NCBI RefSeq assembly: GCF_018448495.1 | Contig: NZ_CP049902.1 | Span: forward strand, 3,348,001 to 3,412,000 | DNA from: Psychrobacter sp. WY6 | GTDB lineage: Bacteria; Pseudomonadota; Gammaproteobacteria; Pseudomonadales; Moraxellaceae | Direction: 5' to 3' | DNA length: 64,000 bases | Made by a program: the position numbers and the translations under genes | The notes under the pieces: model-generated | What the model was told of the DNA's origin: nothing | What the model saw: only the letters and a program-made list of their open reading frames with translations | Databases searched by the model: none | Shown: piece by piece, positions 1 to 9,285 of the stretch | Position numbering within the stretch: the first letter of the stretch is position 1 | Layout of the letters: every line of letters begins with the position of its first letter

Positions 1-1206
1 TAACGATATACATTGAACCTTTACGTGAATTTGATAGCGCATTTTTACCTTAAGGTCATTGAGCGTTAATAGTGGTGTAATCAAGCCATCCATCAAGCCT
101 TCAAATATTGTTCTTGACCATCACCCAAGTCGACCAATATTGCAGGGTTTTGCATGAGGTGACCGACGTTACGAATCAGCAATAACGAACGACCTGGCAG
201 GATCAGCTTGCCACCATCTGGTGTGGTGTATTCACGATCTGGATTTTGCTGACGTGTGCGGGTTTTGCCACCTTTTTCAAAGGTTTCTTGCAAGTCACCA
301 TTCATGAGACCAAGCCAATTGCGATACACTTCCACTTTTTCTTCTGCATCGACGGCACGATTGATCTTCACAATCTTGAATTGCCGTAATAGCTGACTCT
401 AGCAGCACATCTTTGATATGTGCAGGGTCGTCTTTACCGACTGGATGGTTGGCATCTATTTGAATTTCTGCATGCAAACCGTTGTTTTTTAATAAAATAC
501 CCGTTGGGCTTTCTGCATCACCGACGAAACCAACGAATTTTTCGGCATCTTTTAGCTCAGTACTGCTATCACCTTGGACAATTTCAAGCTTACCATCGAC
601 CACTTTAAAGCCGGTCGCATCGTTATATGAACCTGACGCCAATGCAAAGTTTTCATCTAGGAATTGTTTGGCATAAGCAACGACAGCAGCACCGCGAGTT
701 GGGTTGTAACCACCTTTTGCTTCTTGACCATTTTCGTCACTGATAACATCAGTACCGTATAAAGCATCATACAAGCTGCCCCAACGAGCGTTGGTTGCGT
801 TCAATGCGTAGCGCGCATTACGTACTGGTACGACCAACTGCGGGCCTGCAATATGAGCAATCTCGTCATCGACATTTTCTGTGCTAACTTTAAAATCATC
901 GCCTTCTGGCAACAGATAGCCAATCTCTTGTAAGAATGCTTTGTAAGCAGGATAATCAATGTTGCCGTCTTTGGCAGGATGTTGCAGGTGCCACTGGTCA
1001 ATCTGCGCTTGAATCTTGTCACGAGTTGCAAGCAATGCTTTATTGCGCGGCGTAAACTCTTTAATGACCTTTTCAAAACCTGACCAATAACTGTCTGAAT
1101 CAACACCGACTTTCGGTAGCACTTCGTTTTCAATAAAGTCATACAATTGCTGGTCGATGGCAAGAATGCCTTTTTGAATACGATTGGCGTTAGAAGACTG
1201 GCTCAT
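1..1206 (-). CDS. glcB: malate synthase G, N-terminal part, frameshifted and cut by the window edge
   Basis: Condenses glyoxylate with acetyl-CoA to malate in the cytoplasm (glyoxylate bypass or glycolate/glyoxylate use). From the ATG at 1206 the first ~275 residues read as the N-terminal part of malate synthase G. The frame is lost near 370-390, where two bases seem missing before the [13 protein letters not shown] block. That second frame carries [10 protein letters not shown], which contains the catalytic Arg of the family (Arg338 in E. coli), and is lost again near 98-105. A third frame ([10 protein letters not shown], then [10 protein letters not shown] after another slip near 35) continues to the edge. 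The family is ~720 aa, so about half lies outside. Conservation in all frames makes sequencing errors likelier than decay. It may use glyoxylate from the urate genes at 41-46 kb (inference). Confidence 0.9.
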
Positions 1207-1830: not shown

Positions 1831-2583
1831 ATGGCAAACACTATGAATAAAGAAGATATAAGAACCAAGAACAGTAACGACAAAGTTATGAACGACAGCA
1901 ATATAGAAGAACCTAGTATAGTAAAAGACGAGATAGATGAGGACGATGTTGATATCACAAAGCTACGCACCCCGATAAAGGTTGACCTATCTGCTGTTTA
2001 TAATTTTTTGGGTGCGCGCACAACACAAGCTTGGGTTGATGCGGCGATTGCGAATGTACCGCTGATCATTCAAGATCATGCCAATTGCGAAAAAAAGGCC
2101 GCTGGCACTGCCATGAATCTCATATTCCGCTATGAGTTTTCTTATGATTTGCAGCGTAAATTGGCACAATTGATACGTGAAGAAATGCTTCATTATGAGC
2201 AGGTTTTAGGTATTATGAATGACCGTGGTCAGGCGTGGAAATATCTAAGTGCTGGACGTTATGCCAAAGGCATGCTAAAACACAAACGTACTTATGAGCC
2301 AGCAGCGATGGTGGATGTGTTGATAATTGGCGCATTTATCGAAGCACGCTCTTGTGAACGTTTTGCCGCCCTTGCTGAAGTCATCGACGACGAACGCTTG
2401 GCAAAGTATTATCGCTACTTACTTAAGTCGGAGAGTCGTCACTTTGAGGATTATTTAGCCTTGGCTCAATCACTGTCTGAGGATAATATTGATGAGCGTG
2501 TCGCATTTTTCAAAGAAGTAGAAGCAGAACTGATTTCTAGCCCAGATCATGAGCTACGCTTTCATAGCGGTACACCTGCTTAA
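1831..2583 (+). CDS. miaE: tRNA-(ms2io6A) hydroxylase MiaE
   Basis: Oxygen-dependent di-iron enzyme that hydroxylates the isopentenyl group of ms2i6A37 in tRNAs reading UNN codons. The ferritin-like ligand motifs are visible in order: EEMLHYEQV, then EARSCERF, then ESRHFEDY, embedded in a helical core starting about 60 residues into the protein (DLSAVYNFLGART). The first ~55 residues are acidic and low in complexity (Asn/Asp/Glu/Lys-rich). The frame is open back to an ATG at 1777. I chose the ATG at 1831 (MANTMNKED) because the extra 18 residues look non-coding, but no strong ribosome binding site decides between 1777, 1831 and 1843. A bidirectional hairpin terminator follows. Stand-alone gene. 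Confidence 0.88.
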   Translation: MANTMNKEDIRTKNSNDKVMNDSNIEEPSIVKDEIDEDDVDITKLRTPIKVDLSAVYNFLGARTTQAWVDAAIANVPLIIQDHANCEKKAAGTAMNLIFRYEFSYDLQRKLAQLIREEMLHYEQVLGIMNDRGQAWKYLSAGRYAKGMLKHKRTYEPAAMVDVLIIGAFIEARSCERFAALAEVIDDERLAKYYRYLLKSESRHFEDYLALAQSLSEDNIDERVAFFKEVEAELISSPDHELRFHSGTPA

Positions 2584-2649
2584 ATACGTAATATTAGGTA
2601 TCATTTTAGATTAGATACCCTCTTATACAGTGAACGTTATACAGCAAAA

Positions 2650-2715
2650 AAGTGAAGTAACTAGCCAAGTTTAATGCTCTGGTCTGTTACCTCACTTATT
2701 AACATTTTTTTTAAA
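2650..2715. terminator. hairpin terminator between miaE and the small-ORF cluster
   Basis: AAGTGAAGTAAC (2650-2661) pairs with GTTACCTCACTT (2686-2697) at 11 of 12 positions. A run of T follows on the + strand and A residues precede it, so it can serve the convergent genes on both sides. Confidence 0.6.
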
Positions 2716-2738
2716 CTTCGTTATAGCAAAATGAATGG

Positions 2739-2945
2739 TTATTTATCATCTTTCATTAATGAGCTGTCATACTGTTTACTATCCTTCGCAACATGATGAG
2801 GATCGTGATTATCGGTTGCCCTTTCTGCCGCTGCTGGATTGACTTTTTGTAGCGCATCATCAGGTACGATGCCATGGTTATCGTTCGCATCTCTTAACTG
2901 ATGGTCTTCTTGGTTGACAGCCTTGTCATCTGGCGTATTCATCAT
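2739..2945 (-). CDS. small hydrophilic protein, unknown function (cluster member 4)
   Basis: A 68-residue protein beginning MNTPDDKAVNQED and ending SSLMKDDK. I do not recognise the family. It is almost free of hydrophobic residues, rich in Asp, Asn, His, Gln and Ala, with no signal peptide or membrane segment, so probably disordered. The ATG at 2945 is chosen because AAGGAG lies just upstream with good spacing; an open frame continues to 2975 but its residues look untranslated. It is the last of four similar-looking minus-strand genes (4037, 3791, 3411, 2945), each with its own Shine-Dalgarno sequence and 79-128 bp gaps, and ends at the shared terminator at 2650-2715. Confidence 0.65.
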   Translation of the reverse strand: MMNTPDDKAVNQEDHQLRDANDNHGIVPDDALQKVNPAAAERATDNHDPHHVAKDSKQYDSSLMKDDK

Positions 2946-3024
2946 TACTCCACTCCTTATTATCATAATAGTCATTCTATAAAGATAAAAAATCTGTATT
3001 TAATCAATTTTTTATAAAAAGCTA

Positions 3025-3411
3025 TTAATCTTTTTCATCAGGATTTAACACCCGTGTTTGAGCATTATCGATATTTGCATAACGATTCATGTTGTTAATA
3101 CCTTCGCTTTTGGATGTCTCGCTAACCATCGTATGCTCATTCACGCCATCATCAAAGGCGTTACCTTCTTGGTCTCGGCGATCAGGCTGACGTGCAGGGT
3201 TGTCATTATCATTGACATGCTCTGAGTTGACGACGCCTTCTTTAAAAGTATCCGTTCCTTTATTTTCAGTGATGTTCTTTTCAATACCACTATCACTATG
3301 CTCATTAGAAGTAGGACTACTAGGTAGGCTATTAGCAGAATCATGACTATTGATTGAGTCATCATTTTCACTGATGCGTGTCTTGGTAAGTGCTGGATCA
3401 TTGGTTTGCAT
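3025..3411 (-). CDS. small hydrophilic, predicted disordered protein (cluster member 3)
   Basis: A 128-residue protein, start MQTNDPALTKTR, end RVLNPDEKD. No known domain is visible. Composition is Asn/Asp/Ser/Glu-rich with long polar stretches and no hydrophobic core, membrane segment or cysteine. AAGGATAT precedes the ATG at 3411. It looks like the neighbours at 3540-3791 and 3867-4037 in size class and composition rather than in alignable sequence. Function unknown; a stress-related, hydrophilin-like role is only a guess from composition. Confidence 0.6.
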   Translation of the reverse strand: MQTNDPALTKTRISENDDSINSHDSANSLPSSPTSNEHSDSGIEKNITENKGTDTFKEGVVNSEHVNDNDNPARQPDRRDQEGNAFDDGVNEHTMVSETSKSEGINNMNRYANIDNAQTRVLNPDEKD

Positions 3412-3539
3412 GGCTATATCCTTATTATTGTTATTCGTGTTTTAGCAATTGCTTAATGTGCTTAGATTTTTTATGGCGGTTTAGCAAATGGTGAGCCTAA
3501 CTTAATACCCAACTCAACCTAGCTAGCTAGCAATTCATA

Positions 3540-3791
3540 CTATTCATTGCCTTCTTGGCTCAAATCATAAGCATTCAAATCTGCGACGTTCTTGCCACCA
3601 GCGGGTAAATTCTCTTCTTTACGAGGGTCAACATATATCTCGTCGGTTTCTTGCGACTCTTGTTGTGGACCATCGATATTAGGTTCGTGCTTACGACCTT
3701 CATAACTGTCTTGTACATTGTCTGGGTGTAAGGCGGCTGGATCACTAACTGGTACCGCTTCTTCATGGTTTGGATGAGTATTATTTGGCAT
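3540..3791 (-). CDS. small hydrophilic, predicted disordered protein (cluster member 2)
   Basis: An 83-residue acidic protein, start MPNNTHPNHEEAVPVSD, end NAYDLSQEGNE. Rich in Glu, Asp, Pro, Asn and Gln, without hydrophobic segments. GAGGGA precedes the ATG at 3791. The C-terminal half contains PRKEENLPAGGKNVADLNAYD, the only stretch in the four cluster proteins that looks like a possible conserved motif. Family not recognised. Confidence 0.62.
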   Translation of the reverse strand: MPNNTHPNHEEAVPVSDPAALHPDNVQDSYEGRKHEPNIDGPQQESQETDEIYVDPRKEENLPAGGKNVADLNAYDLSQEGNE

Positions 3792-3866
3792 TGCAGTTCC
3801 CTCGCATCAATATGTCATTCATAGATAAAATAAGTTAATCCAAATATTTATATCACAGCTTATTTA

Positions 3867-4037
3867 TCATTTATCCGTACGCAAATCATCTTCAATAAAA
3901 GAGGTTTGCTCGTCTTTACTTAATGCTTCAGGCGCATCGACCTCTTTATTGTCTTTGAGATTTCGCGCAATTTTCTGACTATCTGCTTGCTCAGCAGCTT
4001 TTTTGATATCTGATGTGTCATTATCGGTATTGCTCAT
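3867..4037 (-). CDS. very small hydrophilic protein (cluster member 1)
   Basis: A 56-residue frame from ATG at 4037 to TGA at 3867: starts MSNTDNDTSDIKKAAEQ, ends FIEDDLRTDK. Helix-prone and charged, with no membrane segment. An AGGAAAAATCTT-type ribosome binding region precedes the start. Proposed because its composition, strand and spacing match the three genes that follow. The upstream gap 4038-4310 should hold the promoter of the cluster but no clear -35/-10 pair stands out. Confidence 0.55.
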   Translation of the reverse strand: MSNTDNDTSDIKKAAEQADSQKIARNLKDNKEVDAPEALSKDEQTSFIEDDLRTDK

Positions 4038-4310
4038 AAGATTTTTCCTATTTTTATAATTCGTTGATTTAGGCAGTCCCTACTCTTTTTCGTAATACGA
4101 TCAATGATAGTAATACGAGCAATTTTGCATGAATTACTAGAGTGCTAATTGTTTATTAAACCATCAAACCCGTTTAATAATAGCGTGAGGGCTGATCTTG
4201 ATTATAAGGATGAGATAACGTACTGCACTAGTGTGCTGCCGTATCAATATGTGAATAAATGTGAGGTTACAAGACAGTTTGTAACTTAGACAAATCGTTT
4301 ATCCAAAAAA

Positions 4311-4347
4311 AAACCAAGCATAGAAAGTACTCTATACTTGGTTTTTT
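4311..4347. terminator. bidirectional hairpin terminator after ppk1
   Basis: CCAAGCATAGAAAGT (from 4314) pairs with ACTCTATACTTGG (to 4341) and is flanked by an A-run on the left and a T-run on the right, so it can end ppk1 transcription from the right and shield the small-ORF cluster. Confidence 0.75.
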
Positions 4348-4410: not shown

Positions 4411-6618
4411 CTAGCTTGATGCGTCAACGCCATTAATCACTTTTAATAAATACTCTTGAGCGGTATGCGGCGTTTCACCTGCGGCTGATTGCAGCTGCTG
4501 CCAAACACCATCACCGCTAAGTATCCACGCTTGGGTATTGTCTTTCAGATAGTTAAGTAAACCGTCTTGATATACTTGTTGAAACAGTTTTTTGTCTTCG
4601 ATTGGAAACGCCACTTCGACGCGATGAAATAAATTACGATCCATCCAGTCTGCACTACCACAATATAAGCGCTCGTCGCCATTATTATAGAAATAATAAA
4701 CACGCGTATGCTCTAAAAAACGCCCGATAACAGAGCGTACGGTAATGTTTTCTGATAGACCTTTTACTTGCGGACGCAAACAACACATGGAGCGTAAGAT
4801 GAGCTCGATTTTGACGCCTGCTTGCGAGGCATCGTATAACTTGCTAATCAATCGACGTTCGGTTAAAGCATTAACCTTAACGATAATATGAGCGCGCTTG
4901 CCGGCTTTTGCATGAGCAATTTCATCATCGATAAAGCTTATCAACTTATCATGCAAGGTAAAAGGCGCATGCAGCAGCTTTTTGAGATTGGCAGGCTTGC
5001 CCATTCCCGTCAGCTCTTGAAATATATTATGTACATCCTCTGAGATATCAGGATCTGCGCTAAATAAACCATAATCGGTATAAACTTTAGCATTGGCGGC
5101 ATGATAGTTGCCCGTCCCTAAGTGCACATAGCGGCGGATTCGATCATCCTCACGGCGCACAATGAGCATCAGCTTGGCGTGGGTTTTATAGCCGACAATC
5201 CCGTACACGACGACCGCACCCGCTTCTTGCAAATAATTGGCGACGGCGATATTAGAGGCTTCATCGAAACGCGCACGCAGCTCGATGACGGCAGTGACTT
5301 CTTTGCCATTACGAGCAGCAGCAGCCAATGCTTTAACGATTTCTGAATTGGTGCCTGAGCGGTACAATGTCTGCTTAATCGCTAACACTTTTGGATCGCT
5401 CGCCGCTTGCCAAAGCAGATTGATAATCGGTGAAAATGCATGAAAAGGATGATGCACTAGCACATCGCTTTTACGCATGGCGGCAAACATACTGGTTGCT
5501 TTGTCCAGCTTATCCATCTCACGGCGGAACTCTTTTGGCACTACATGGGTAAAGGGCTGATAGCGCAGCGCTGGAATATTGAAATCAAACAATAAGCGCG
5601 TTAAGTTGACAGGACCATTGACGCGGTACAGCTGATTGTCATGCAGCTCAAACTCATTGAGCAAATAATCACTGATAGGCGTTGGACAATCGGTGGTGAC
5701 TTCTAGCCGCACTTTATCACCGAAGCGGCGGTTTTCTAGCTCGCCCTCCAGAGCCTTAGCAATATCTTCAACATCATCAGCCAAATCTAAATCGGCATTG
5801 CGCGTCAGTCTAAACTGATGGCAGCCCGTCACACTCATACCAGGGAACAGCTCACCGATATGCTCATGAATAATAGCTGAGAGCATGACGTGATGTTCTT
5901 TGCCACCTGTCAGCTCATCAGGCAGGCGAATCACGCGTGGCAAACTGCGCGGTGCGGGCACAATCGCTAGATTGATATCACGACCAAAGGCATCTTTACC
6001 TTCTAAAGTGGCGATAAAGTTTAAGCTCTTATTGACCAAACGCGGAAACGGATGCGCCGGATCGATGCTAATCGGTGTCAACACTGGCGATACTTGCTCA
6101 GTGAAGTAGCGCTTCATCCATGCCGACTGCTCAGCATTTAGCTCATCGCGTTTTAGATAACGAATATCCTCAAGCGCCAGTGCTGGTAAGATATCTTCAT
6201 TGAGAATACGATACTGCTCAGCGATGGCATCGTGCATTACGGTGGATATCTCATTCAGCACTTCACTGGGACGCATGCCATGAACACTGGTCGAGACATC
6301 ACCCATATTTAGCTTTTGCATAATGCCTGCGACACGAATCTCAAAAAACTCATCGATATTCGATGAGAAAATAATCAAGAAAAACAAGCGCTCAAGTAGC
6401 GGATGACGAGGACTTGCCGCCTGCGCTAAGACACGTAAATGAAACTGTAATAAAGACAAGTCGCGATTGATATAACTGCTGGGTGAATAGCTGCCGTCTT
6501 CTGAACGCTGCCATGCAACCTCAGTTAAATGGTCATTGCGACTCTCTGTATGGCTTTTATTATCAACTGCTATCACCGTATTATTGCTATCAGTGTCCTG
6601 CTTATTATTCACATCCAT
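4411..6618 (-). CDS. ppk1: polyphosphate kinase 1
   Basis: Makes polyphosphate reversibly from ATP. About 735 residues, close to the family's usual ~690-740, with no frameshift. Domains in order: N-terminal helical domain starting at [15 protein letters not shown], head domain, then two phospholipase-D-like catalytic domains. The autophosphorylated histidine motif [12 protein letters not shown] and the second essential histidine in [17 protein letters not shown] are present. The first ~40 residues are a polar Asn/Asp/Thr-rich tail not found in enteric enzymes. AAGGAG sits upstream of adjacent GTG (6621) and ATG (6618) codons; either could start. Monocistronic, ended by the hairpin at 4311-4347. 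No exopolyphosphatase gene lies beside it. Confidence 0.95.
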
Positions 6619-6829
6619 CACGTCACTACTCCTTTGCGTTATCGATACGCCATCATCTTCAATACCAATTGTCTTTTATAATCGCTTTTCCACTAAGAAA
6701 TTTATCAGGGTTCTTTCTTCATCCATTACTACTCGAAACTGCCATTCAAAACTATCGCTTAAAACCATCACTTGAAACTATCATTCAAAAACACAGCGCT
6801 ATTTATTAAATGGTCATAGGTACAATCCA

Positions 6830-8096: not shown

Positions 8097-9285
8097 ATGA
8101 AAAATTTGAGCAAAATTACTGAAATTGAAGACCTGCGCCGCGTTGCCGAACGTAAAGTACCGCGTATGTTTTATGATTATGTGGATTCAGGCTCATGGAC
8201 TGAGACGACTTATCGTAGCAATGAAACCGACTTTGACCGTATCAAGTTACGCCAGCGGGTATTGGTAGATATGGACAATCGCAGTCTAGCAACCCACATG
8301 ATTGGCGAAGAAGTAAAAATGCCCGTCGCCATCGCGCCCACTGGCTTTACCGGTATGATGTGGGCGGATGGCGAGATTCATGCAGCGCAGGCAGCAGAAA
8401 AATTCGGCATACCGTTTTCGCTATCGACCATGAGTATCTGCTCTATCGAAGATATCGCCACTCATACCAGCAAGCCCTTTTGGTTTCAGCTATATGTGAT
8501 GCGCGATCATGACTATGTGGCCAATTTAATTCAGCGGGCGAAAGATGCCAATTGTTCGGCATTGATCCTCACCGCGGATTTACAAGTGCTGGGACAGCGC
8601 CATAAGGACATCAAAAATGGCTTGTCTGCACCGCCTAGACCTACACTTGCCAATATCGTCAACTTGATGACCAAGCCTCAGTGGTGTATGAATATGCTGG
8701 GCACCAAACGTCATAGCTTTGGCAACATCGTCGGTCATGCAAAAGGCGTCGACGACTTATCTTCTCTCACCGCTTGGACGGAGAGAGCAGTTTGATCCGC
8801 GCTTGAGCTGGGATGACGTGGCGCGCATCAAAGATATGTGGGGCGGCAAATTAATTATTAAAGGCATCATGGAACCTGAAGATGCCATTATGGCTGCTCG
8901 TAGCGGTGCCGATGCACTGGTCGTCTCAAACCACGGTGGTCGTCAATTAGATGGCGCCCTCTCTTCCATATCTGCCCTATCCGATATCGTACAAACGGTG
9001 CAGGCTGAAAATAGCGATATCGAGGTGTGGTTAGACAGCGGCATTCGCTCGGGTCAGGATGTACTAAAAGCGCGCGCATTGGGTGCAAAAGGCACGATGA
9101 TTGGTCGCGCTTTTCTTTACGGTTTGGGCGCTTATGGTGAAGATGGCGTGCGCCGTGCGCTGGAAATCATTCATAAAGAATGCGATCTATCGATGGCGTT
9201 CTGTGGTCATACTGATATCAATAAGGTTACCACTGATATATTGGTAAAAGGCACTTATGAGAACCTCAAAGTTGCTAATCGTTAA
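8097..9285 (+). CDS. lldD: FMN-dependent L-lactate dehydrogenase, one frameshift
   Basis: Membrane-associated alpha-hydroxy-acid dehydrogenase oxidising L-lactate to pyruvate and passing electrons to the respiratory chain. Reading across the break gives ~396 residues, the normal family size. Motifs: RVPRMFYDYVDSGSW-like start, FMN-binding APTGFTGMMW, WFQLYVMRDHDYV, TADLQVLGQRHKDIKNG, and SNHGGRQLDGA with the catalytic His. At about 8781-8790 one extra base breaks the frame inside the stretch expected to read WTEEQFDPRLSWDD. Both halves are well conserved, so this is probably a sequencing error. No lactate permease or LldR regulator is adjacent. Confidence 0.9.

Follow-up and report, generated by a model that had tools for sequence, protein, structure and literature searches.

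Psychrobacter is known for cold adaptation, and Acinetobacter baumannii belongs to the same bacterial family. The LEA proteins and dehydrins are hydrophilic, disordered stress proteins. Hydrophilins are defined by a glycine content above 6% and a hydrophilicity above 1, as given in the available part of a review on yeast (PMC11277543). Induction by osmotic or water stress is a further trait of the group. DtpA and DtpB of A. baumannii are hydrophilins that support desiccation tolerance and are encoded in one gene cluster, according to the available text of PMC13232832. At the level of regulation, RstA of Escherichia coli binds direct repeats of TACA, as stated in the accessible portion of PMC9426598.

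The locus described here lies in a stretch of 64,000 nucleotides from Psychrobacter sp. WY6, referred to as the window. Four minus-strand open reading frames of 56, 83, 128 and 68 amino acids, proposed by the first-pass annotation as a tandem cluster of small, disordered, hydrophilic proteins, were recovered with the coordinates and lengths it had given. It had also ascribed a ribosome binding site to each gene, and a purine-rich site was present 5' of each of the four ORFs. The cluster and its surroundings comprise:

1834..2583, plus strand: miaE, tRNA hydroxylase, convergent downstream neighbour, assigned by Pfam/NCBIfam; start codon not settled
2646..2697, minus strand: hairpin (stem 2697-2650) with U run, terminating the cluster, -20.2 kcal/mol, z -3.4, between the ends of gene 4 and convergent miaE
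2739..2945, minus strand: gene 4 (family A4), 68 aa, core DADDN.GIVPDDALQK.NPAAAE
3025..3411, minus strand: gene 3 (family A3), 128 aa, N-terminal half variable, C-terminal half conserved, NKGTDTF..DNPARQPDRRDQ..
3540..3791, minus strand: gene 2 (family A2), 83 aa, core SYEGRK..IDGP..SQETDE.Y.DPRKEE.LP.GGKN
3867..4037, minus strand: gene 1 (family A1), 56 aa, conserved C-terminal block ..SFIEDDLRTDK
4308..4347, minus strand: terminator-like hairpin 3' of ppk1, -24.4 kcal/mol, z -7.6, separating ppk1 from the cluster
4411..6621, minus strand: ppk1, polyphosphate kinase, upstream neighbour of the cluster, profile match

Malate synthase G (window 93-1206, minus strand) was apparently split into two overlapping frames, a 303-aa ORF with malate synthase domains and a 92-aa ORF that had no Pfam match at 1e-5 and was taken as the continuation by eye. 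A frameshift from sequencing or assembly is the apparent cause of the split. An FMN-dependent dehydrogenase (window 8097-9285, plus strand) was likewise present as two overlapping frames, covering profile positions 1-214 and 198-348. This second split and the 85.6% completeness of the two-contig genome make indel errors likely.

The four ORFs are real genes. Unconserved frames or a dN/dS near 1 had been named beforehand as signs that they are not, and neither was observed. Median values lay at 0.07-0.15, with 0.148, 0.072, 0.132 and 0.118 for genes 1, 2, 3 and 4, and no usable pair was at or above 1. The neighbour miaE showed a median of 0.075 and the +1-frame control gave 1.1-1.4. Usable pairs had a dS of 0.1-1.5 and numbered 96, 94, 103 and 32 for genes 1-4 and 77 for miaE. 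These values and the alignments A1-A4, from which identical sequences were removed, are biased to close relatives, because they were drawn from the 30 best-scoring loci among 76 genomes with a gene 3 match, the window's own included. Genes 1, 2, 3 and 4 were recovered in 28, 30, 30 and 28 of these 30 loci. That the ORFs are spurious and the stretch is kept for another reason, for example as an antisense RNA, would agree with the lack of a Pfam match above the cut-off and of any NCBIfam match for the four proteins. It is contradicted by the dN/dS values and the +1-frame control, by the presence of ribosome binding sites and by single genes being lost while others stay in place, and no Rfam match was found in the window at the gathering threshold. 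This explanation can practically be set aside.

Within the window's genus, 76 of 80 genomes, the window's own among them, had gene 3. Conservation and synteny in Psychrobacter, the check proposed for the cluster, were followed in 68 loci from public genomes, all titled Psychrobacter and retrieved via gene 3. Families 1, 2, 3 and 4 were detected in 63, 66, 68 and 61 of the 68 loci, the value for family 3 following by construction from the retrieval. All four genes were found together in 56 loci, and the order and single strand of those present were kept in 68/68. Upstream ppk and convergent downstream miaE were each seen in 67/68; the exceptions, L115 and L112, were cut near contig ends.

A wider sample of the same bacterial family held 149 genomes in 16 genera, with 41 from the window's genus. 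Within the genus, families 1, 2, 3 and 4 were detected in 35, 39, 38 and 33 of the 41 genomes, one of the family 4 matches being weak (E 0.0015). Among the other 108 genomes, families 2 and 4 were found in none, and families 1 and 3 each in four, an identical set belonging to genus g7; family 1 had one further, marginal match in genus g15 (E 0.08). In the g7 genomes, families 1 and 3 lay within the miaE locus in all four cases (L133, L134, L135 and L138). The miaE loci of two more g7 genomes, G126 and G131 (L130 and L137), carried none of the four families. Across the class, with 229 genomes from 196 genera, only the window's own genome matched family 3, and a search for plasmid carriage of gene 3 gave no match. 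Within this sampling, only the window's genus therefore has families 2 and 4, and families 1 and 3 also occur in one other genus. By these counts across genus, family and class, Psychrobacter has the operon as a near-core trait, and g7 possesses part of it. In the three g7 loci whose ORFs were listed, a different gene lay between families 1 and 3, at 703-1053 (plus strand) in L134, 692-1054 (plus strand) in L135 and 2556-3179 (minus strand) in L138. It comprised 116, 120 and 207 codons, respectively, and had no match to A1-A4.

Reduced sets were found in several genomes. G005 retained genes 1 and 2 and had lost 3 and 4, and the miaE locus of G035 held gene 1 only. None of the four was present at the miaE locus of G061, where a ppk-like frame (by eye) was followed by miaE about 130 bp on. 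These losses indicate that the set is dispensable somewhere. In G056, neither miaE nor any of families 1-4 was matched. Rearranged forms were also observed. Genes 1 and 2 were fused in frame in G119 (L126 2921-3418, minus strand), producing one frame that spans 165 codons, or about 104 if counted from the probable start, with the conserved end of gene 1 dropped. A transposase-like ORF (by eye) was located between genes 1 and 2 in G044 (L008 2318-3070, minus strand). In five genomes (G012, G028, G030, G066 and G153), the N-terminal half of gene 3 was matched additional times within a single long frame, which suggests an internal duplication of the variable half.

The hairpin and U run 3' of gene 4 agree with the common terminator proposed for the cluster. 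This structure was missing from the simple terminator scan, probably because of its long loop. Within the cluster, the same scan listed no minus-strand terminator; a single transcript is thus likely, and genes 1-4 probably form a shared transcription unit. Shared transcription with ppk1 is unlikely, since the strong terminator-like hairpin at 4347-4308 intervenes. Promoter-like sites (10 versus 12.1 in shuffles) and terminator-like sites (2 versus 3.8) were not enriched in the region.

A feature new to the locus is a conserved element of about 60 bp 5' of gene 1, at a fixed distance from a TATAAT-like -10:

4226..4285, minus strand: conserved cis element, about 60 bp, AC steps phased at 10 bp, a single site found in the genome
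4201..4206, minus strand: TATAAT hexamer as -10, spaced 19 nt from the element

The strict element was detected in 60 of the 68 Psychrobacter loci and a TATAAT-like hexamer followed exactly 19 nt downstream in 60/60. The element was visibly degenerate in L106, L111 and L118, diverged in L116 and L117, and not seen in L114 within the part that was read; as for the remaining non-strict loci, only 101 bases were read in L119, and L115 was cut by the contig end. Four loci without a detected gene 1 retained the element 5' of gene 2 (L073, L075, L104 and L113). In the alignment A5, which holds 29 elements selected to be diverse and includes a few degenerate ones, the mean majority base was 0.94 over the first 59 columns and 0.49 over the next 19. 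Unrelated ATTGATAC sites matching the anchor were left out. The constant spacing to the -10, together with the variable sequence beyond, points to promoter DNA. The promoter scan listed no -35 partner for the -10 at 4201..4206. A diverged stretch 5' of gene 1, TCAACATAAATAAACACA..TACGTG-like, with AC steps apparently 10 bp apart (by eye), was observed in L116, L117, L139 and L173, and could represent an alternative version of the switch.

Scanning with at most 3 mismatches, and a second scan that scored 150 of 1457 first-look candidates, gave one site for the whole element in this genome. A genome-wide regulon of the full element was consequently rejected. Among 20 genomes, strong matches were obtained in four (G000, G029, G119 and G002). 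The next best match anywhere had an E of 0.014, so no element was assigned in these 20 to g7 or to the reduced genomes G005, G035, G056 and G061.

AC dinucleotides occupied element columns 4, 24, 34, 44 and 54, and others fell out of register at 8, 19 and 52. By a post hoc statistic, chosen after the sequence had been seen, this register was matched by 3 of 5000 dinucleotide shuffles, even with any dinucleotide and periods of 10 and 11 allowed, and the locus thus has tandem sites in 10-11 bp register beside a weak -35, a trait of OmpR/PhoB-type promoters. Phasing by 10 bp is typical of OmpR/PhoB-type regulators, and the AC steps suggest an activator of this type. BfmR is RstA-like. Control of the element by BfmR/RstA is a guess at a candidate. 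In support of BfmR, the available part of a source on A. baumannii is cited (PMC7315123).

The proteins are polar and hydrophilic, as the first-pass annotation had described them. The GRAVY of the window's four proteins was -1.38 to -1.41, compared with a median of -0.21 for the 57 non-overlapping window ORFs of at least 120 aa, among which gene 3 was the lowest. Values of -1.78 to -1.11 were obtained for all 116 members of the four families. The Uversky test was positive in 116/116 family members tested, with a net charge of -3 to -18, and the window's copies were devoid of Cys and Trp. Structure predictions with AlphaFold2 covered families 2 and 3, with a mean pLDDT of 59.4 and 57.2 and a pTM of 0.13 and 0.14, respectively, and neither contained a helix of at least 4 or a strand of at least 3 residues; low confidence is by itself no proof of disorder. 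Low hydropathy, high net charge and the lack of a predicted fold for these two families agree with the composition and with the disorder claimed earlier, and the four proteins are predicted to be acidic and disordered. A role as surface or biofilm-matrix proteins, a suggestion that originates solely in the first-pass annotation, would call for a signal peptide. No strongly hydrophobic stretch fit for one was found in a KD scan of the window's copies, where the highest 9-residue mean was 0.92; nothing points to secretion and this role is very remote.

The sequences are also strongly constrained. In the 30 best-scoring loci, 31 of 83 positions were invariant in family 2, 42 of 128 in family 3 and 22 in family 4, and the best 30-aa windows of these families reached a mean majority residue of 0.91-0.93. 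Disordered composition combined with nearly invariant blocks argues for contact motifs, beyond bulk composition. Acidic bulk proteins for charge or osmotic balancing, or as a nitrogen store, would need little sequence. All four families are acidic and hydrophilic, as such proteins would be, but the dN/dS values and the invariant blocks speak against this reading, which appears quite improbable. The same blocks are in keeping with partner-specific adaptors or regulators, in which each block would be a linear motif for one machine, such as RNA polymerase, the ribosome, Ppk or similar, altering its activity under stress. Against adaptors, no domain was found in the four proteins with Pfam or NCBIfam, no partner is known and four unrelated factors of this kind side by side would be unusual. 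They are possible, if doubtful.

A water- or cold-stress protectant operon is favoured over such adaptors. What was directly established are the genes, their order, the selection on them, their predicted disorder, and the conserved element with its spacing; the function is more tentative, in that the operon would be regulated and would encode disordered proteins that protect against stress in the way hydrophilins do, though they fit no known family. One sigma70-type promoter with a good -10, and without a recognisable -35, would be turned on when an activator occupies the 60-bp element immediately 5' of it. The activator would most likely be a response regulator of the OmpR/PhoB family on head-to-tail 10-bp sites, with BfmR/RstA as the first candidate. 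Four acidic disordered proteins would then accumulate under water or cold stress, that is drying, freezing or high salt, and would shield other proteins and membranes against aggregation in the manner of hydrophilins. Their conserved blocks may serve as contact motifs for clients or for one another. Several findings stand against this reading. Three of the four families fall below the glycine limit of hydrophilins, the blocks are more conserved than a protectant acting through composition alone seems to require, promoter-like and terminator-like sites are not enriched in the region, and genes were lost in some genomes of the genus. A whole element occurring once in the genome is also odd for a general stress regulator, although single sub-sites would be too degenerate to detect. 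A more specific version seems unlikely, in which the four unrelated proteins from one activator-dependent promoter would function solely as a set, for instance through co-condensation around clients in freezing or drying, the set having begun in a common ancestor of Psychrobacter and g7 and been completed in Psychrobacter.

The locus provides lineage-specific proteins, predicted to be disordered, as a small set that is deletable, nearly genus-wide and equipped with a defined candidate switch. It opens the question of how disordered protectants act when sequence is conserved beyond composition. It also raises that of which regulator governs water- or cold-stress protection in Psychrobacter.

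No convincing match to known families was obtained for the four proteins in Pfam, NCBIfam and PHROGs, for 28 members of A3 in Pfam, or for families 2 and 3 in the PDB. Weak matches to GPAT_C, IL1_propep and SWIB (E 0.03-0.1), to phrog_22537 (E 0.024) and to Flag1_repress (2 of 28 A3 members, best E 0.0039) were regarded as chance. No paralogy between the four families could be detected; six profile-profile comparisons gave probabilities of 0.08-2.63%, in line with the earlier remark that the sequences are not obviously paralogous. A description of the cluster was not found among the titles and opening lines of abstracts in open-licence literature on Psychrobacter hydrophilins, disordered proteins, cold transcriptomes and desiccation. 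The available part of PMC13163687, on cryoprotection by Antarctic extracts including one from Psychrobacter, names no such protein.

Likeness to hydrophilins, as initially suggested, held for composition and failed for the formal class. The hydrophilicity index was above 1 in 116/116 members, a property shared with strict hydrophilins such as Salmonella YciG (available text of PMC5437024). Glycine exceeded 6% in 0/28 members for gene 1, 23/30 for gene 2, 1/30 for gene 3 and 0/28 for gene 4. Unlike YciG, three of the four families are too low in glycine, and no convincing Pfam/NCBIfam match was found; the proteins are therefore not classed as hydrophilins despite their hydrophilin-like composition, and only the gene 2 family comes near the definition. 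With LEA proteins and dehydrins they share hydrophilicity and, by prediction, disorder, but the window's four proteins had no such Pfam match at E<=1. DtpA and DtpB resemble them in host family, gene clustering and hydrophilic character, whereas the DtpA/DtpB cluster, as reported in the available text, also holds katE, which the Psychrobacter cluster does not. In the 149 genomes, the four profiles were confined to the window's genus and g7, bar the match in g15. The element can be compared with the tandem-site promoters of the OmpR family, such as those with the RstA box of TACA direct repeats (accessible portion of PMC9426598), with which it shares AC-containing units in a 10-bp register directly 5' of the -35 region. 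In contrast to the RstA box, the units of the Psychrobacter element are CACA/TACA-like and extend over six steps, one of them degenerate (by eye).
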